Shown here piece after piece: positions 52,400-60,829 of a DNA stretch of 64,000 bases. Location: assembly GCF_001894865.1 (NCBI RefSeq), contig NZ_BCXA01000011.1:1-64000 (forward strand). Direction: 5' to 3'. Each line of letters starts with the position of its first letter. The first letter of the stretch is position 1. This DNA comes from Rhodococcus maanshanensis NBRC 100610 (lineage in GTDB: Bacteria; Actinomycetota; Actinomycetes; Mycobacteriales; Mycobacteriaceae). The notes under the pieces are model-generated. The model ran no database searches and had not been told where the DNA came from. It saw nothing but the letters and a program-made list of their open reading frames with translations. The translations under genes were made by a program, and so were the position numbers.

Positions 52400-53875
52400 A
52401 TGCGTAGATTGCTGGCGATAGGCGTCGCCACACTCGGAATCGCGGCGGCGTGCATACCCGCGGTCGCCGCCGCCGACCCACCGCAGCGGACGCCGGTCAG
52501 TCAGGTGCGCGTCGAGGGCCGCACCCTCGTCGACGGACACGGCCGCGCGCTGCTTCTGCACGGAGTCAACAACGTCGACAAGGAGGCCCCGTACCTCACC
52601 TGGGACACGCTCAAAGCGGCCGATGCCGACGTTCTCGCCCGACACGGGTTCAACAGCGTCCGACTTGGCGTGTCCTTCGACGCACTGATGCCCGAGCGCG
52701 ATCGTATCGACACCGACTACCTGGATCGACTCTCGGGCGTTGTCGACCTGCTCGGCAGCCGCGGCATCTACGTCCTGCTGGACAACCACCAGGACTCCCT
52801 CGGCAGCCCGTGGGGCGGCAACGGGTTCCCGGCGTGGTCCATCGAGGCGAGGCCCGCCCCGGGCGAGAACAACCCCGGATTCCCGATGAACTACCTGATG
52901 CCGAGCATGAACAAGGGCTGGGACGAGGTCTGGAACAACACCAACGGGGTGCTCGACAAGCTCGGCACCGCCCTCGCCGCCCTGGCCGCGAAGGTCAACG
53001 GCAAGCCGGCGGTCCTCGGCATCGAAGTGCTGAACGAACCGTGGCCGGGATCGCCATACCTGAGCTGCTTCCCCCTCGGCTGCTCGGACTTCGACAAGAA
53101 GTACCAGGCGGCACTGGAGAAGGTGACCACCTACATCCGGGATGCGAACGCGGCGGTTCCCGTCTTCTGGGAGCCGAATGTGACGTGGAACCAGCTGATG
53201 CCGAGCAACCTTGGCAAGCAGCCCATCTCCGATCCCAACGTGGCGTTCTCCGTGCACGACTACTGCATCCCCAGCCAGCTGAGCATCTACAGCGGGCTGC
53301 CGGGGTGGGTGGCGGCCCTGTGCCCGGCACAGCACGACCGCACCTGGGGGAACATCGAGGCCCTGCAAGCCCGCACCAACCGACCCGCGCTGGTCACCGA
53401 GTTCGGCGACGTCGACCCCGACACCCTGAAGGCCACGGTGTCACGGGCCGACGGCCGGAACATCGGATGGCAGTACTGGCACTACAACGGCGGCGACCCG
53501 TTCCAGGGTGAGGTGGGCACGCAACTCGTTCGCACCTACCCGCAGGCCACCGCCGGTGTCCCCGGAAAGCTCCGGTTCAACCCGACCGGTGGCGATTTCG
53601 AGTACACCTACCAGCCGCGCCCGTCCGCCAAGCCCACTGAGATCTACGTCTCCGACCTGCACTACCCCGGCGGATACGTCAGCGAAGTCAAGGGCGGCCG
53701 GGTGACGTCCGCGGCGGGCGCTCGCATCGTGACCGTCCAGGCCGACGGCACGGCGCCCGTCACCGTCCGGATCCACCGCCCCGACTCCAACGGCAACGAC
53801 CTCCCGACGTCCGGTTCCGCCGACGCCGGTTCGGGTGAGAGCGGCTCGGGCGGGACGGGGAGCCTCGGTTCCTGA
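52400..53875 (+). CDS. Secreted GH5 glycosidase, endoglycoceramidase-like (copy B)
   Basis: A 491-residue GH5 enzyme. Signal peptide about residues 1-25 (cleavage near AVAAA-DP). E213 in VLNEPWPG is the acid/base and E335 in LVTEFGD the nucleophile. LHGVNNVDK, LLDNHQDSLG and the C-terminal beta-sandwich with PTEIYVSDLHYPGGYVSEV match rhodococcal endoglycoceramidase/endogalactosylceramidase architecture, so it probably cuts glycosphingolipids outside the cell. The tail is Gly/Ser-rich and ends GSLGS. GGAGGA precedes ATG 52400. It is a tandem paralogue of copy C. Confidence 0.82.
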   Translation: MRRLLAIGVATLGIAAACIPAVAAADPPQRTPVSQVRVEGRTLVDGHGRALLLHGVNNVDKEAPYLTWDTLKAADADVLARHGFNSVRLGVSFDALMPERDRIDTDYLDRLSGVVDLLGSRGIYVLLDNHQDSLGSPWGGNGFPAWSIEARPAPGENNPGFPMNYLMPSMNKGWDEVWNNTNGVLDKLGTALAALAAKVNGKPAVLGIEVLNEPWPGSPYLSCFPLGCSDFDKKYQAALEKVTTYIRDANAAVPVFWEPNVTWNQLMPSNLGKQPISDPNVAFSVHDYCIPSQLSIYSGLPGWVAALCPAQHDRTWGNIEALQARTNRPALVTEFGDVDPDTLKATVSRADGRNIGWQYWHYNGGDPFQGEVGTQLVRTYPQATAGVPGKLRFNPTGGDFEYTYQPRPSAKPTEIYVSDLHYPGGYVSEVKGGRVTSAAGARIVTVQADGTAPVTVRIHRPDSNGNDLPTSGSADAGSGESGSGGTGSLGS

Positions 53876-53929: not shown

Positions 53930-53935
53930 TCACCA

Positions 53936-54018
53936 CCGAACGGCTCTCGTACACACCGGACCCAACGCCGTGGGTGAGCGTGCGGTCCTTGATGGCGTCG
54001 AGCGCTCCGGTGATCGAG
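53936..54018 (-). pseudogene. metE 3'-region remnant between GH5 copies B and C
   Basis: 83 bp that align without gaps to 55913-55995 inside metE, about 75 of 83 bases equal by hand count. Read on the minus strand it still encodes LDAIKDRTLTHGVG and GVYESRS, against LDAIKERKLTHGVG and GVYESRS in metE. No start, stop or flanking metE sequence remains. It begins 6 nt after the copy B terminator, where metE would lie if a GH5-terminator-metE unit had been duplicated. Confidence 0.8.
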
Positions 54019-54048
54019 ATCCCCGAAACCGCGGCGCGACGGGCGGGC

Positions 54049-54082
54049 CCTCCCTACGATCACATCACTTGGACATGTGTCC
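54049..54082 (+). promoter_or_regulatory. Shared upstream element of GH5 copy C
   Basis: CCTCCCTAC (54049-54057) and GGACATGTGTCC (54071-54082), the counterpart of the element before copy B; GGACA and TGTCC are inverted. Confidence 0.45.
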
Positions 54083-54113
54083 ATATGGCTGTACGAATCC
54101 ACGGAGGCGATAC

Positions 54114-55652
54114 ATGCACAGACTGCTGACGATTGGTTTCTCCGCCGTACTACTCGCGATCACGGTCGTCTCGACCCCCGCGATTGCCACCGCCGACGAA
54201 GTCGCGCGACAACCCGCAAGCCTGCTCCATACCGAAGGCCGTTCGCTGGTCGACGACTTCGGACGCACGGTTCTGCTACACGGGGTGAACAACGTCGACA
54301 AGAGCGCGCCGTACCTCAACCCCGGTGACGGTCTCACTGTCACCGATCGGGATGCAGACCTGCTCGCCCAACACGGGTTCAACACCGTCCGGCTCGGGGT
54401 CTCGTTCGACGGGCTGATGCCCGAACGCGACCGGATCGACGACGCATACCTCGAGCGAATCGCCGGCACCGTCGACGTGCTCGCCGCACGGGGCATCCAC
54501 GTCCTGCTCGACAACCATCAGGATGGGCTCTCGAGCATATGGGGCGGCAACGGTTTTCCCGCCTGGTCCATCGAGGCGCGCCCCCTACCCGGCGAGCCGA
54601 ACCCCGGTTTCCCGATGAACTACCTGATGCCGACGATGAACCTCGGCTGGGACGAGGTCTGGAACAACTCGCACGGCGTGCTCGACCACCTCGGCGTCGC
54701 CCTCGGCGCACTCGCGGCGAAGGTGAACGGCAAACCGGGCGTGATGGGCATCGAGCTGCTGAACGAGCCGTGGCCCGGATCGCCGTTCCTGACCTGTTTC
54801 CCGAACGGCTGCCCGGACTTCGACCGGAAGTACCAGGCTGCGATGCAGAAGCTCACCGATCACGTCCGCGCCGCGAATCCGACGGTTCCTGTGTTCTGGG
54901 AGCCAAATGTCACCTGGAACCAGATGATGCCGACGAACCTCGCCAACCCGCCCGCGACACCCGCGATCGGCGACCCGAACATCGTCTTCGCCCCGCACGA
55001 CTACTGCATCCCCAGCCAGCTCGCCATCTACCTCGACCTGCCGGAGGCACTGCGCGCCGGCTGCGACCTGCAGCAGATCAACACCTGGCGCAACATCGAC
55101 GTACTCACCGAGCGCGCCGACATCCCGACCGTGGTGACCGAGTTCGGCGACGGCGACCCCACCGTGCTCGCCAGCACCCTCGCCAGCGCCGACGAGCGCT
55201 TCATCGGGTGGCAGTACTGGCACTACAGCAGCATTTTCGGGCCGACCGACCGCCCCGATCCGTTCCTCGGTGAGGTGGGCCGCAAGTTGGTGCGGACCTA
55301 TCCACAGGCCACCGCGGGGACACCGGTCTCGCTCCGGTTCAACTCGGAGGGAGGCGATTTCGAGTACACGTATCGACCGCGGGCCGCCGCCCGGCCCACT
55401 GAGATCTACGTCTCCGACCTGCACTACCCCGGCGGATACGTCAGCGAGGTCACCGGCGGCCAGGTGACGTCCGCGGCGGGTGCTCGCGTCGTGACCGTCG
55501 AGGCCGACGGCACGGCGCCCGTCACCGTCCGGATCCACCGCCCCGACTCCGACGGCAACGACCTCCCGACCTCGGGTTCCGCCGATGCCGGTTCGGGCGA
55601 GAGCGGTTCGGGCGGGAGCGGTTCGCTCGGGACCGGGAGCCTCGGTTCCTGA
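54114..55652 (+). CDS. Secreted GH5 glycosidase, endoglycoceramidase-like (copy C)
   Basis: A 512-residue GH5 enzyme, paralogue of copy B along its full length. Signal peptide about residues 1-28 (cleavage near TPAIATA-DE); acid/base E218 in LLNEPWPG, nucleophile E343 in VVTEFGD. Differences from B include a longer loop (ANPPATPAIGDP) near residues 278-288 and an added segment before the WQYWHY-S-S-I-F-G region, near the active site, so specificity may differ. The last about 75 codons are almost identical in DNA to copy B. The tail ends GSLGTGSLGS. GGAGG precedes ATG 54114. Confidence 0.82.
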   Translation: MHRLLTIGFSAVLLAITVVSTPAIATADEVARQPASLLHTEGRSLVDDFGRTVLLHGVNNVDKSAPYLNPGDGLTVTDRDADLLAQHGFNTVRLGVSFDGLMPERDRIDDAYLERIAGTVDVLAARGIHVLLDNHQDGLSSIWGGNGFPAWSIEARPLPGEPNPGFPMNYLMPTMNLGWDEVWNNSHGVLDHLGVALGALAAKVNGKPGVMGIELLNEPWPGSPFLTCFPNGCPDFDRKYQAAMQKLTDHVRAANPTVPVFWEPNVTWNQMMPTNLANPPATPAIGDPNIVFAPHDYCIPSQLAIYLDLPEALRAGCDLQQINTWRNIDVLTERADIPTVVTEFGDGDPTVLASTLASADERFIGWQYWHYSSIFGPTDRPDPFLGEVGRKLVRTYPQATAGTPVSLRFNSEGGDFEYTYRPRAAARPTEIYVSDLHYPGGYVSEVTGGQVTSAAGARVVTVEADGTAPVTVRIHRPDSDGNDLPTSGSADAGSGESGSGGSGSLGTGSLGS

Positions 55653-55670
55653 CACCCCATCCGCATGACG

Positions 55671-55700
55671 AGGGCTCCGGACCTGATGGTCCGGAGCCCT
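55671..55700. terminator. Terminator between GH5 copy C and metE
   Basis: AGGGCTCCGGACC-TGAT-GGTCCGGAGCCCT, perfect 13-nt arms, between convergent genes; nearly the same sequence as the copy B terminator. Confidence 0.8.
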
Positions 55701-55712
55701 TGTCGTGCAACG

Positions 55713-58007
55713 CTACTCGGCCGAGGCCACCTTCTCGGCCCTGCGGCGCAGGCGGCGCGCCGCGGCCACGAGGTTCCGCAGCGACGGCTCGAGCTGCCAG
55801 TAGTGCCTGGTCTTGAGGCCGCCGTCCGGGTTGGCCCACAGTCGGTCCAGCTCCACGGACTCCGCCGCCTCGGTGAGCAGCTCGTCGAGCTCGTCGATGT
55901 CCGGGATCCGGGCCGAACGGCTCTCGTACACGCCGGGTCCAACGCCGTGGGTGAGCTTGCGCTCCTTGATGGCGTCGAGCACCCAGGTGATCGAGCGGGT
56001 CGCCACGATCGCTGTCACGTCGCAGTCCATCCGCTCGATCGCGTCCACCACCGACTTCTGGGTCGTGTAGGTCAGGTGGGTGTGGATCTGCGTCTCCGGC
56101 TTGGCACCGCCGGTCGCCAGCTTGAACGCGTCGACCGCCCAGTCCAGGTACTCCTTGCGACCGCCGGCCCGCAGCGGCAACAACTCCCGGATCGCCGGCT
56201 CGTCGACCTGGATGATCGAGATGCCCGCGGCCTCCAGATCGGCCACCTCGTCACGGATCGCCAGCGCCAACTGATCCGCGGTCTCGTGCAGCGGCTGGTC
56301 CTGCCGGACGAACGAGCGCGCCAGCATGGTGATCGGACCGGTGAGCATGCCCTTGACCGGCTTGTCGGTCAGCGACTGCGCGTAACCGATCCACTCAACG
56401 CTCATCGGCCCCCGCCTGCGGACGTCGCCGTAGAGGATCGGCGGCCGCACGCAGCGCGATCCGTATGCCTGCACCCAGCCGTTGTGGGTGGACGCGAATC
56501 CGTCCATCAGCTCGGCGAAGTACTGGATCATGTCGTTGCGCTCGTGCTCACCGTGCACCAGGACGTCGAGGCCGATGTCCTCCTGCAGCCGGATCGTGCT
56601 CTCGATCTCGGCCTGGATCCGCTTGACGTAGTCCTCCCACTCGAGGCGACCCTGTCCGAGCTCGTAGCGTGCCTGGCGGATCGCGTCGGTCTGCGGGAAC
56701 GAACCGAGGGTCGTCGCAGGCACCTTCGGCAGGTTCAGCTTCTCCTGCTGCGCCCGCAGGCGGACCTCGTACGGCGCCCGGATGCGGTCCTCGGCCTTGA
56801 TGGCGTAGACCCGTTGGCGCACTTCGTGCTTCTGCTTGAAATGCACCTTCGTCGGCTTCTTGCGCCAGCGCTCGGACGGACCCTCGGTGAGCGCCTTGGC
56901 CAGCGAGACCACCTCGCCGACCTTCTGCTTGGCGAAGGCGAGCCGGTCCGCGACGTCGCCGTCGAGGTCCCACTCGGCCAGCACGTCGTAGGGCACGTGC
57001 ATCAGCGAACAGGACGTCGAGACCACGAGATCCGGGATCACGTCCTTGAGCGAGGACAGATAGGTGAGCGTGACGAAGCTGTCTGCCCGCCAGACGTTTC
57101 GGCCGTTCACGACGCCCGCGTAGAGGCGCTTGCGCTTCAGACCCGGGATCTTCGCCAGCTCTTCGGCCGCGACCTTGCCGTAGACCAGGTCGAGCCCGAG
57201 CGCCTCGACCTTGGTGGCGGCCAGGATCGGAAGTGCCTCACCGAGATTCCCATACGGGCCGGTGACCAGGATCCGCGGTCGCAGCGGCGCATGGGACAGC
57301 GTGGTGTACGCCCGCTCGAGCGCGGCCAGTTCCTCGGGGGTGCGGTCCTGGGTGAAGGCGGGCTCGTCGAGCTGGACGCAGGTGGCCCCGGCCTTGGCGA
57401 GCAATTCGAACAGCGCCTCGTACTGCGGCAGCAGCGAATCCAGCAGGTCGAGCACCGAGAAGTCGTCCACCGCATCGGCGCTCGCCTTCGACAGCAGCAA
57501 CAGCGAGACCGGGCCGAGGATGACCGGGCGCAGCTCGATGCCGCGTGCCTTGGCCCGTTCGAACTCGTCCATCAGCGCGTCGGCACGCAGGGAGAACACG
57601 GTGCGCTCGTCGAGCTCGGGCTGGCGGTAGTAGTAGTTGGTGTCGATGAACCGCACCAGCTCCAGCGGCGGGAAGTCGGGCCGGCCGCGGGCCATGGTGA
57701 AGTAGAAGTCGAGTTCGTTCAGCTCACCCTCGAGCGGGGCGAACCGGCCGGGCACGGCGCCGAAGAGCAGCGCGTTGTCCAGCACGTGGTCGTAGTAGGA
57801 GAAGGTGTTGCCTGGCACCTGCGTCAGGCCGGTCGCGGCCAGCTCGCTCCAGGTCTGCTCCTGGAGCTCCCGGCCGACGGCGATCAGCTCGGCCTGGCTG
57901 GACTTCCCGTGCCAATACGCTTCGAGTGCCCGCTTGAGTTCGCGTCGTGGCCCGATCCTCGGGTACCCCAGGACGCTGGAGCCGTAGGTGGCGGCGCTGT
58001 TGGACAT
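55713..58007 (-). CDS. metE: MetE-like cobalamin-independent methionine synthase lacking zinc ligands
   Basis: A 764-residue full-length MetE homologue: LGYPRIGPRRELKRA at the N-terminus, the two barrels in normal order, and IIQVDEPAIRE in the C-terminal barrel. Canonical MetE binds catalytic zinc with His641, Cys643, Glu665 and Cys726 (E. coli). Here the aligned residues are H644, T646 (HLTY for HMCY), V668 (AIVATRS for TIETSRS) and G729 (NPDGGLKTR for NPDCGLKTR), so three of four ligands are gone. Homocysteine activation as known is not expected. It could use another mechanism or substrate. The gene converges on GH5 copy C; only about 105 nt separate it from fadB2, too short for a riboswitch. 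Confidence 0.85.
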   Translation of the reverse strand: MSNSAATYGSSVLGYPRIGPRRELKRALEAYWHGKSSQAELIAVGRELQEQTWSELAATGLTQVPGNTFSYYDHVLDNALLFGAVPGRFAPLEGELNELDFYFTMARGRPDFPPLELVRFIDTNYYYRQPELDERTVFSLRADALMDEFERAKARGIELRPVILGPVSLLLLSKASADAVDDFSVLDLLDSLLPQYEALFELLAKAGATCVQLDEPAFTQDRTPEELAALERAYTTLSHAPLRPRILVTGPYGNLGEALPILAATKVEALGLDLVYGKVAAEELAKIPGLKRKRLYAGVVNGRNVWRADSFVTLTYLSSLKDVIPDLVVSTSCSLMHVPYDVLAEWDLDGDVADRLAFAKQKVGEVVSLAKALTEGPSERWRKKPTKVHFKQKHEVRQRVYAIKAEDRIRAPYEVRLRAQQEKLNLPKVPATTLGSFPQTDAIRQARYELGQGRLEWEDYVKRIQAEIESTIRLQEDIGLDVLVHGEHERNDMIQYFAELMDGFASTHNGWVQAYGSRCVRPPILYGDVRRRGPMSVEWIGYAQSLTDKPVKGMLTGPITMLARSFVRQDQPLHETADQLALAIRDEVADLEAAGISIIQVDEPAIRELLPLRAGGRKEYLDWAVDAFKLATGGAKPETQIHTHLTYTTQKSVVDAIERMDCDVTAIVATRSITWVLDAIKERKLTHGVGPGVYESRSARIPDIDELDELLTEAAESVELDRLWANPDGGLKTRHYWQLEPSLRNLVAAARRLRRRAEKVASAE

Positions 58008-58035
58008 CGTGTCGACCTCTCCCTCGATGCGCTTC

Positions 58036-58087
58036 GCGCCCGTGCGCGATCGGTACCCCGGCAGGGGTGAAAATCGCGCACGGGCGC
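58036..58087 (-). terminator. fadB2 terminator / dispersed palindrome copy 3
   Basis: GCGCCCGTGCGCGAT (58036-58050) and its exact complement (58073-58087), with ACCCC and GGGGT pairing inside the loop. Located between fadB2 stop and metE start on the same strand. Same outer sequence and flanks as at 11393-11440. Confidence 0.75.
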
Positions 58088-58112
58088 CGAAGGTGCGTAC
58101 TGGTGAAGCTAC

Positions 58113-59009
58113 CTAGCTTGCTTTCTTCGTGCTCCGACCGTTCTCGCCGTACTCGTAGAAGCCCGCGCCGGACTTCTTGCCGACGAGTCCGGCCTCGACC
58201 ATGCGCAGCAGCAGCGGCGGAGCCGAGTAGAGCGGCTCCTTGAACTCCTCGTACATCGAGTCCGCGATCGACTTGACGGTGTCGAGGCCGACCAGGTCCG
58301 TCAGGGCCAGCGGGCCCATCGGGTGGTTACAGCCGAGCACCATCGCGCGGTCCACGTCCTCCTTGGTCGCGAATCCGGACTCGACCATCCGGATCGCCGA
58401 CAGCAGGTACGGCACGAGCAGCGCGTTGACGACGAACCCGGAGCGGTCGGCGCTGCGGACGACCTGCTTGCCGAGGACCTCGCTCGCGAAGGCCTCGGCC
58501 CGCTCGGAGACCGCGGAGCTGGTCTTGAGGGTGGTGACGAGCTCGACGAGCGGGAGCACGGGCACCGGGTTGAAGAAGTGCATGCCGATCACACGCTCGG
58601 GCGCCTTGGTGGCGATGCCCAGCTTCATGATCGGGATGGAGGAGGTGTTGGAGGCCAGCACCGCATTCGGGTCCGTGACCACCTGGTCGAGCTCGGCGAA
58701 GATCGCGCTCTTGACCTTCTCGTCCTCGAGGACGGCCTCCACGACGAGCTGCCGATCGGCGAAGTCGCCGAGGTCGGAGGTGAAGCGCAGCCGCCAGGCG
58801 GCCTGCTCCCGCTCACGCTCGGTGATCTTGCCGCTGCTCACACCGCGGTCCAGCGACCGCAGGATGCGGGCACGGCCGGCCGCCGCGAGCTCGCGGGTCT
58901 GCTCGAACACCAGAACATCGACATGTGCGCGGGCGCACACCTCGGCGATTCCGGCGCCCATGATGCCTGCGCCGATCACGCCGACGCGCTGAATCTTTTC
59001 GCTGGTCAC
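58113..59009 (-). CDS. fadB2: 3-hydroxybutyryl-CoA dehydrogenase
   Basis: A 298-residue 3-hydroxyacyl-CoA dehydrogenase. NAD motif GAGIMGAG (13-20), catalytic H144 in HFFNPV with E156, S122 in NTSS and N195 in GFVVN; C-terminal helical domain with GPLALTDLVGLD. It interconverts acetoacetyl-CoA and 3-hydroxybutyryl-CoA in fatty acid or PHB metabolism. Placement after aceA equals the icl1-fadB2 order of M. tuberculosis. A terminator in the gap suggests partly separate expression. Confidence 0.92.
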   Translation of the reverse strand: MTSEKIQRVGVIGAGIMGAGIAEVCARAHVDVLVFEQTRELAAAGRARILRSLDRGVSSGKITEREREQAAWRLRFTSDLGDFADRQLVVEAVLEDEKVKSAIFAELDQVVTDPNAVLASNTSSIPIMKLGIATKAPERVIGMHFFNPVPVLPLVELVTTLKTSSAVSERAEAFASEVLGKQVVRSADRSGFVVNALLVPYLLSAIRMVESGFATKEDVDRAMVLGCNHPMGPLALTDLVGLDTVKSIADSMYEEFKEPLYSAPPLLLRMVEAGLVGKKSGAGFYEYGENGRSTKKAS

Positions 59010-59042
59010 GTCAGCTCCTCATCGTCTAGTGGAGTCGTCCGC

Positions 59043-59073
59043 ACCGCGGGGCCCGGGCTGTGGGCCCCGCGGT
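59043..59073 (-). terminator. Terminator between aceA and fadB2
   Basis: ACCGCGGGGCCC (59043-59054) and its complement (59062-59073), perfect 12-nt arms, 7-nt loop, 36 nt after the aceA stop. Confidence 0.75.
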
Positions 59074-59108
59074 GGGTGGGACGGGTCGTGCAGGTGAAGC
59101 GGGGGTTC

Positions 59109-60398
59109 CTAGTGGAACTGGCCCTCTTCGGTGGAGCCCTTCAGCGCCGCGGTGGACGTGTTGGGGTCGACCGTGGTGGCGATGCTGTCGAAGTAGCCGG
59201 CGCCGACCTCACGCTGGTGCTTGATGGCGGTGAAGCCACGCTCCTCGGCGGCCTTGAACTCGCGCTCCTGCAGGTCGACGAAGGCGGTCATGCCCTCGCG
59301 GGCGTAGCCGTGCGCCAGGTCGAACATGCCGTAGTTGAGCGAGTGGAAGCCGGCGAGGGTGATGAACTGGAACTTGAAGCCCATCGCGCCGAGCTCCTTC
59401 TGGAACTTCGCGATGGTCGCGTCGTCCAGGTGCTGCTTCCAGTTGAAGGACGGGGAGCAGTTGTAGGCCAGCAGCTGGTCCGGGAACTCGCTGCGGACGG
59501 CCTCGGCGAACTGCTTGGCGACCTCGAGGTCCGGCACGCCGGTCTCCATCCAGATGAGGTCGGAGTACGGGGCGTAGGCCTTGGCACGCGCGATGCAGGG
59601 CTCGATGCCGTTCTTGATGCCGTAGAAGCCCTCGGCGGTGCGGGTGCCGTCGAGGAACGGGCGGTCACGCTCGTCCACATCGGAGGTGATGAGGGTGGCG
59701 GCCTCGGCGTCGGTGCGCGCGATGACGACGGTGGGGACGTCCGCGACGTCGGCCGCGAGACGCGCCGAGGTCAGGGTGCGGATGTGCTGCTGGGTCGGGA
59801 TGAGCACCTTGCCACCGAGGTGGCCGCACTTCTTCTCCGACGCGAGCTGGTCCTCCCAGTGCGAACCGGCGACGCCGGCCGCGATCATGGCCTTCTGCAG
59901 CTCGTAGACGTTCAGCGCGCCGCCGAAGCCGGCCTCGCCGTCCGCGACGATCGGGGCGAGCCAGTTCTCGACGGAGGTGTCGCCCTCGACCTTGGCGATC
60001 TCGTCGGCGCGCAGCAGCGCGTTGTTGATGCGACGGACGACCTGCGGCACCGAGTTGGCCGGGTAGAGGCTCTGGTCCGGGTAGGTGTGACCCGAGAGGT
60101 TCGCGTCACCGGCGACCTGCCAGCCGGAGAGGTAGATGGCCTTGAGGCCGGCGCGCACCTGCTGCACGGCCTGGTTGCCGGTGAGGGCACCGAGGGAGTT
60201 GATGTAGTCCTCGTTGTTCACGAGGTCCCACAGGATCTCGGAGCCACGGCGGGCGAGGGTGGCCTCCTCGACGACGGAGCCCTGGAGCTTGACGACCTGC
60301 TCGGCCGTGTAGTTACGGGTCAGTCCCTTCCAGCGGGGATTGGTGTCCCAATCCTGCTGGATCTCAGCTGCGGTCTTCGGGGTGCCGGTGGTCGACAT
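59109..60398 (-). CDS. aceA: Isocitrate lyase
   Basis: A 429-residue glyoxylate-shunt enzyme cleaving isocitrate to succinate and glyoxylate for growth on acetate and fatty acids. The active-site loop K189-K-C-G-H193 has the catalytic C191 at the same number as in M. tuberculosis Icl1, whose length is also near 428. GGAGCC precedes ATG 60398. The 444-nt upstream region carries a RamB-type palindrome and direct repeats, consistent with carbon-source control. Confidence 0.96.
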
Positions 60399-60557
60399 CG
60401 AGGCTCCACTCTCTTGTATCTGCTGGTCCGGTACGGATGTACTGCTTCACATCCTTGCCAGGCCCTTCGTATGTACTTAACGAGAGTGGCATACGCAAAA
60501 ACTGCCGTCTACCTGTTGCTAATGCCAATCTTGGCTAGGTTTTCAAACAGGGTTGCT

Positions 60558-60571
60558 AACTTTGCAAAGTT
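60558..60571. promoter_or_regulatory. RamB-type palindrome upstream of aceA
   Basis: AACTTTGCAAAGTT, a perfect 14-bp palindrome 160 bp before the aceA start. RamB of corynebacteria and mycobacteria, a known regulator of aceA/icl1, binds sites with the core TTTGCAAA. Confidence 0.65.
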
Positions 60572-60594
60572 CAGACCGGCCAAGCGAGCGCTTG

Positions 60595-60632
60595 GCTACC
60601 GGCAAGTAGCTTGGCGAGCTACCGGCAAGTAG
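60595..60632. repeat. 15-bp direct repeats upstream of aceA
   Basis: GCTACCGGCAAGTAG occurs exactly at 60595-60609 and 60618-60632 (start-to-start 23 bp, about two helical turns). GTAGCT-N5-AGCTAC is inverted across the junction. Likely tandem binding sites of an unidentified regulator. Confidence 0.5.
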
Positions 60633-60829
60633 GTTCCGACCTGCGGATTGTTCGCGACGCGCGAGCGGCGGCGGTCGCGCCGATTCGGCCGCCCGACCGA
60701 GGACCGCGCAGGCACCCGATCACGGTCGACCCGACCCGGCTGTGAGGGCAATCACGTCGCCCGAGGGTCACCGGCATGCTCGTTCACACCCATCGCGGCG
60801 AAGTCCGCGCCGCCTGCAACGCCGCCGGT

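Follow-up and report, generated by a model that had tools for sequence, protein, structure and literature searches.

The closest described relatives of the protein that we call MetE' are canonical methionine synthase (MetE; E. coli b3829; PDB 1u1h and others) and proteins that share part of its fold. In canonical MetE, which methylates homocysteine to methionine with 5-methyl-THF-polyglutamate as the donor, we take W561 to stack on the pterin of the folate, E605 to be a pterin contact, and H694 to be the loop histidine that has been proposed as the proton donor. UroD has a fold related to that of MetE, is metal-free, and uses arginines for carboxylates. (UroD is a single barrel with another substrate, and its likeness to MetE' is one of general description and not of compared sequence.)

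The short core proteins MesA, MesB, MesC, and MesD share the catalytic barrel family with MetE' but have no N-terminal barrel, which MetE' does have (Meth_synt_1, residues 10-323). In the available text of PMC7857596, MesB-like proteins of the Chloroflexales are described as having lost the HCEC set of zinc ligands (FSHG, YCDQ, YREQ), and the MesC of MSBL-1 as having lost E665. These losses are reported for short core proteins, and we found no case in a full-length MetE in the same text. Another relevant protein is the MetE of Rhodococcus qingshengii IGTS8 (peg5907), which has as many cysteines and methionines as some MetE' proteins but was published as a working methionine synthase (PMC8557817).

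Like canonical MetE, MetE' has the full-length two-barrel architecture and the homocysteine contacts S433, E484, and D599 (E. coli numbering), but three of the four zinc ligands, along with W561 and H694, are replaced. By its architecture MetE' is a MetE; its zinc and folate features, as predicted from the sequence, argue against classing it with the functional methionine synthases. Our searches of the open-licence PMC literature gave, among the papers listed, no description of the MetE' clade as zinc-less and nothing relevant about MetE with isocitrate lyase in Rhodococcus. (In the parts available, the subject of PMC7835258 is vesicles of C. glutamicum, and PMC9426449 gives carbon-source data.)

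A full-length MetE without its zinc site

The window is the whole stretch of DNA that we analysed, 64,000 nucleotides from Rhodococcus maanshanensis NBRC 100610. The features of metE' are:

55713..58007, minus strand: metE', a full-length MetE paralogue without the zinc site (from the open reading frame, Pfam, and alignment)
56700..56702, minus strand: S436 (S433 in E. coli), homocysteine carboxyl contact, kept
56547..56549, minus strand: E487 (E484), homocysteine amino contact, kept
56316..56318, minus strand: R564, replaces the folate-site W561
56202..56204, minus strand: D602 (D599), homocysteine amino contact, kept
56184..56186, minus strand: E608 (E605), covaries with R564 in relatives
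56070..56078, minus strand: codons from H644 (kept zinc ligand) to T646 (replaces C643)
56004..56006, minus strand: V668, replaces the zinc ligand E665
55917..55919, minus strand: R697, replaces the invariant H694
55821..55823, minus strand: G729, replaces the zinc ligand C726

The open reading frame runs from ATG to TAG on the minus strand (the strand was absent from the initial annotation) and encodes 764 amino acids. At E <= 0.001, Pfam identified two MetE domains, Meth_synt_1 (PF08267, residues 10-323) and Meth_synt_2 (PF01717, residues 430-751), and no UroD family profile. In an alignment to MetE from E. coli K-12, H641 is retained as H644 (CAC), while C643 corresponds to T646 (ACC), E665 to V668 (GTG), and C726 to G729 (GGC), with a constant offset of +3 across the zinc-ligand sites. 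A frameshift or a misalignment is ruled out as the cause of the ligand loss by the codons and the constant offset. The initial annotation had described a full-length MetE, free of frameshifts, that has lost three of its four zinc ligands and kept only the histidine, and the alignment, the codons, and the presence of both barrels bear this out. Two more replacements went beyond that description: W561 corresponds to R564 (CGC) and H694 to R697 (CGT). The homocysteine contacts, which bind the carboxyl and amino groups of the substrate (PMC7857596, available text), are kept.

MetE' is treated differently by the two NCBIfam models. It scores 891 against TIGR01371, below the cut-off of 929.95, and 966.7 against NF003556, above the cut-off of 541. 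The canonical MetE from the same genome is above both cut-offs (1043.6 against TIGR01371).

Conservation across the MetE' clade

We compared 153 distinct MetE' proteins (24 of 177 rows were removed as identical over E. coli positions 20-715; protein rows of 650 or fewer amino acids and the fragmented copies of genome G230 were left out) to 61 canonical MetE rows, including E. coli, which have 181 invariant positions. None of the 153 has Cys at 643, Glu at 665, or Cys at 726. H641 is present in all 153. Position 643 is G in 61 proteins, T in 56, A in 12, P in 12, S in 6, N in 4, and E in 2; position 665 is V in 148 and I in 5; and position 726 is G in 152 and F in one. On the folate side, position 561 is R in 146 proteins, L in 3, F in 3, and G in one (W in 61/61 canonical rows), and position 694 is R in 152 and H in one (H in 61/61). 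S433, E484, and D599 are retained in 153/153. The residues at these positions clearly indicate that MetE' cannot use the known zinc mechanism of MetE and that its predicted amino-acid pocket has been kept.

The initial annotation had asked whether the T/V/G pattern is shared by homologues: the V and the G are nearly always present, but the T position is free. In two proteins from genus g8 (L299 and L300), position 643 is a glutamate, which is a potential ligand; V665 and G726 are still non-ligands in these proteins.

Of the 181 canonical invariant positions, 12 carry a replacement in 95% or more of the MetE' variants (169 do not), and five of the six chemistry positions (the four zinc ligands, W561, and H694) are among those 12 (hypergeometric P = 3e-6, which treats the positions as independent and uses six chemistry positions that were named after the first looks at the alignment). 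Position 605 covaries with position 561: the pairs are R/E in 145 proteins, R/D in one, L/T in 3, F/T in 3, and G/Q in one. All 7 rows without R561 also lack an acid at 605, although these are few lineages and few independent events. This covariation fits a putative salt bridge in the former pterin site. The AlphaFold2 model of MetE' (from 40 sequences of at least 71% identity) had a pLDDT of 62.6 and a pTM of 0.48, and was weakest in the catalytic half.

Other residues are fixed in the MetE' clade and are absent or rare in canonical MetE: R128, Q129, R151, C210, Y252, and Y296 in the N-terminal barrel and T670, E695, and R697 in the C-terminal barrel. Eight positions are newly fixed as C, H, D, or E (window E55, D111, E158, C210, D326, D354, D477, and D703). 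D477 and D703 fall in the catalytic half, and none of the eight lies within the zinc-ligand motifs (641-645, 663-668, and 722-730). We therefore rejected replacement zinc ligands within these motifs, and a rebuilt metal site is without sequence support. The earlier suggestion of "another metal site" finds no backing for the same reason, and position 643 varies freely. A second early suggestion, "another methyl acceptor", loses weight through W561R and H694R, since with these the folate side seems to have gone too. The third was that the protein may act with a partner, and the locus does offer two constant neighbours, isocitrate lyase and FadB2.

Distribution and selection

In named genomes, the best 80 of 163 loci have 71-97% identity to MetE' and belong to Rhodococcus, Nocardia, Skermania, Antrihabitans, Aldersonia, Smaragdicoccus, and a few MAGs. 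Additional relatives from further genomes have identities down to 61%. Among the matches listed, counting by eye, rows with at least 60% identity occur in 24 of the 31 sampled genera of the family. Across 394 genomes of the class, and again among the matches listed, there was no full-length hit from outside the family at above 55% identity and one 102-residue piece at 58%. We read 26 canonical loci, 23 of them from other families, and each has all four HCEC ligands as well as W561 and H694; for the remaining hits beyond the family, identity was the sole criterion.

A tree built by a quick method, without bootstrap, from 55 variant and 46 canonical sequences separates the variants from the canonical proteins at a single branch (SH-aLRT 100, length 1.21). 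Nei-Gojobori dN/dS values for the window's metE' versus five relatives were 0.076, 0.082, 0.170, 0.129, and 0.129. For the same pairs, fadB2 gave 0.11-0.15 and icl 0.03-0.12; a comparison of this genome's canonical metE with one relative gave 0.21. MetE' is under purifying selection. A pseudogene reading is ruled out by these values. Judging from the aligned residues, the predicted loss of the zinc site is more than chance or error, given one clade, purifying selection, and 0/153 proteins with the ligands.

Methionine supply in genomes with MetE'

The initial annotation proposed searching the genome for a canonical metE or metH, and both turned up: a canonical MetE whose zinc site is complete (G000:C6:96407-98656, 51% identical to MetE') and a full-length MetH that scores above the curated cut-off. 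This speaks against a methionine synthase role for MetE'. Within the genus, MetE' is present in 6/6 genomes and canonical MetE in 3/6. We also examined 40 genomes that were chosen for having MetE' and no detected canonical MetE. (For most of them, the absence of canonical MetE rests on a scan that scored two candidates per genome; in G025 and G066, the single match was taken to be MetE', as inferred from E = 0.) MetH is present in all 40, in 39 of them over the cut-off, so MetE' is not needed to explain methionine synthesis in these genomes. One genome with MetE' and no detected canonical metE (G008) has metH in two abutting pieces (G008:C1:1747257-1750774), which match profile positions 2-674 and 675-1182.

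The icl - fadB2 - metE' locus

Upstream of metE' lie the following features:

58008..58112, minus strand: fadB2-metE' spacer, with a G+C-rich hairpin and no U tract
58113..59009, minus strand: fadB2-like 3-hydroxyacyl-CoA dehydrogenase, a constant neighbour
59109..60398, minus strand: isocitrate lyase (aceA/icl), a constant neighbour
60561..60568, no strand assigned: TTTGCAAA palindrome, 163 bp upstream of the icl start

The order icl - fadB2 - metE', all on the same strand, was found at all 96 loci with enough flanking sequence. (Another 7 of the 103 loci were left out because of too little upstream flank; fadB2 is in place in 4 of these, and the other 3 do not reach fadB2.) The same order holds at 16/16 loci from more divergent genera, for a total of 112/112, and 108 of these 112 loci differ in their MetE' sequence. 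The gap between fadB2 and metE' has a median of 144 bp (range 15-594). These results show that MetE' is tied to isocitrate lyase by genomic position. The remark in the initial annotation that the protein "seems to be maintained" is thus strongly supported by the single clade, the dN/dS values, and the fixed gene order.

We analysed the region around icl in 13 of 14 genomes without MetE' (the region in L253 was too short). In all 13, icl and fadB2 still adjoin, which implies that MetE' is not needed for isocitrate lyase as such, and that MetE' was either added to, or lost from, an older pair. No gene replaces MetE' throughout these 13 genomes. In two of the genomes without MetE' (L254 and L256, genus g6), an alcohol dehydrogenase is next after fadB2, save for a small gap; in other genomes, the alcohol dehydrogenase often comes after MetE'. 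In L263 and L266 (genus g29), genes that resemble mycolic acid methyltransferases (named by eye) lie beside icl-fadB2, where other genera have MetE'.

In Mycobacterium tuberculosis, PrpR binds a TTTGCAAA site that lies 175 bp before the start of icl1, and icl1 is repressed by RamB on glucose (PMC3420887, available text). Of 96 relatives, 27 have TTTGCAAA in the 400 bp before icl, where mononucleotide shuffles lead one to expect 0.1. In the other 69, it is absent from the 400 bp searched, which counts against our main reading, in which MetE' is co-produced with isocitrate lyase. So does the presence of G+C-rich hairpins in the icl-fadB2 spacer of 71/96 relatives and in the fadB2-metE' spacer of 57/96 (perfect stems of at least 9, with no shuffle control). 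With these spacer hairpins in many relatives, icl, fadB2, and metE' may or may not share a transcript.

In the window itself, hairpins without a U tract follow icl (59010-59108), fadB2 (58008-58112), and metE' (just downstream of 55713), and many relatives have stems that resemble these in sequence between fadB2 and metE'. A scan of 55500-60800 for consensus promoters and terminators found 0 of each. Riboswitch control was also considered and rejected, as nothing within the window matched Rfam at the gathering score.

The induced MetE of R. qingshengii

In R. qingshengii IGTS8, peg5907 was 190-273-fold up with dibenzothiophene versus sulfate, and according to the authors it was among the ten most abundant proteins of the sulfur proteome; they read it as the methionine synthase of a sulfur-sparing response to sulfate limitation (PMC8557817, available text). 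The protein is given as having 2 cysteines and 7 methionines. Canonical MetE proteins have 4-6 cysteines (in all 31 that we read in the large genera g23 and g27; 4-5 in those of g23), while the MetE' proteins of g23 have 1-3, and four MetE' rows (L214, L217, L031, and L038) have 2 cysteines and 7 methionines each. (We infer that genus g23, which contains R. tibetensis, holds the erythropolis group.) Because its counts match MetE' of g23 and not the cysteine counts of canonical MetE, peg5907 is probably a MetE', as identified by residue counts and not by sequence. The MetE' proteins of other genera have up to 6 cysteines and are still without the zinc ligands.

The cultures received dibenzothiophene at 0.5 mM, diluted from a 100 mM ethanolic stock, beside 20 mM glucose (PMC8557817), which by arithmetic comes to about 0.5% ethanol (v/v) in the culture. 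The available text of that paper makes no mention of ethanol in the sulfate cultures. In R. erythropolis N9T-4, the oligotrophy genes aldA and mnoA are strongly induced by ethanol, and aceA is essential for oligotrophic growth (PMC9502362, available text). Given the ethanol in the dibenzothiophene culture, the induction of peg5907 may be a response of the icl locus to ethanol and not to sulfur, although sulfur limitation may still be its cause.

What MetE' might do

We propose that MetE' is probably a repurposed paralogue and not a methionine synthase. Our main reading, in which we have about even confidence, is that it would be a repurposed enzyme of C2/C3 acid metabolism, free of metal and folate, with an amino acid still bound in its pocket. 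In its favour we count the lost and kept positions in the 153 relatives, the single clade, the low dN/dS, the covariation of 561 with 605, the fixed gene order, the TTTGCAAA palindrome before icl as at icl1 of M. tuberculosis, the canonical metE and metH of this genome, metH in the 40 genomes, and the strong induction of the 2-cysteine peg5907 in a culture given ethanol. Against it stand, besides the missing palindromes and the hairpins in relatives, the authors' own reading of that induction, the match of peg5907 by residue counts, and the 13 genomes in which icl and fadB2 adjoin without MetE'. An old and conserved MetE paralogue would have given up zinc- and folate-dependent methyl transfer, and would be co-produced with isocitrate lyase during the use of C2 compounds, fatty acids, or propionate. 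An alpha-amino acid would be held in the old pocket of the metal-free, folate-free protein, and R564 (paired with E608) and R697 would seal off or remodel what was once the folate pocket. The arginines alone suggest that the remodelled pocket might accept an anionic partner, for instance a short oxo acid or a dicarboxylic acid. A bolder version, which we put forward only tentatively, is that MetE' represents a new class of enzyme on the MetE double barrel and performs an unrecognised step of the glyoxylate or methylcitrate pathways, such as one that links an alpha-amino acid to a short oxo acid from isocitrate lyase, or cleaves the two apart; the "MetE" that is induced during biodesulfurisation in Rhodococcus would then be the same enzyme answering ethanol and no methionine synthase.

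MetE' might instead be a pseudoenzyme that binds an amino acid such as homocysteine or methionine and serves as a sensor, a scaffold, or an allosteric partner, with isocitrate lyase and FadB2 as possible targets. The chemistry positions are gone and the amino-acid subsite is untouched, position 643 is free to vary, as if there were no catalysis there, and the neighbours icl and fadB2 are constant, all of which would suit such a role. However, because T670, E695, R697, C210, R128, and R151 have become fixed in the clade, a new function is suggested rather than loss alone, and if peg5907 is a MetE', its reported abundance is much for a sensor, so we think that a pseudoenzyme is rather unlikely. 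We give distinctly less credence to a metal-free methyltransferase whose donor or acceptor requires no zinc-activated thiol. The fold and the amino-acid pocket are kept, and members of the MetE superfamily with other donors exist (PMC7857596, available text), but the folate-side positions are lost, and there is no methyl carrier among the neighbours that resemble genes of the window (icl, fadB2, and a zinc alcohol dehydrogenase).

If peg5907 is a MetE', the published view of it would make MetE' a sulfur-sparing methionine synthase that lacks zinc, has fewer cysteines, and is made when sulfur is short. Its strong induction, its composition (PMC8557817), and the low cysteine counts of MetE' compared to canonical MetE within g23 agree with this. 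We nevertheless consider it improbable: the thiol is activated by zinc in MetE and MetH alike (PMC7857596, available text), the folate positions are lost as well, the MetE' of other genera lack the ligands despite their higher cysteine counts, the dibenzothiophene came with ethanol, and metH was present in every one of the 40 genomes chosen for having MetE' but no canonical metE that we could detect. That MetE' is a decaying, functionless duplicate of metE is hardly credible. A degenerate fragment of the 3' end of metE' does lie nearby, but it is a by-product of the tandem duplication of a neighbouring gene, and dN/dS of 0.076-0.170, intact length across the family, and the fixed gene order all argue against decay.

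Consequences for annotation

Because genes of the MetE' clade pass the curated model NF003556, annotation transfer will probably label them methionine synthase. The metabolic model in the proteome study of R. qingshengii was probably built on such a name (PMC8557817, available text), and it needs re-examination if MetE' is not a methionine synthase. In that case, a gene that keeps its place next to icl throughout the family would also hint at an unrecognised branch of the metabolism of C2 compounds, fatty acids, or propionate. More broadly, MetE' seems to be a clean natural case in which the substrate pocket has been kept and the metal site and, seemingly, the cofactor site have been lost.

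A tandem duplication beside metE'

On the other side of metE', a gene of the GH5 cellulase family has been duplicated in tandem (52400-53875 and 54075-55652, both on the plus strand; 76% DNA identity over about 1.49 kb). The duplication carried along a piece of the 3' end of metE', whose remnant is at about 53934-54035 on the minus strand; within it, 53936-54018 shares 90% identity with 55913-55995. A single GH5 gene of this kind occupies the corresponding place in R. oryzae (L039).
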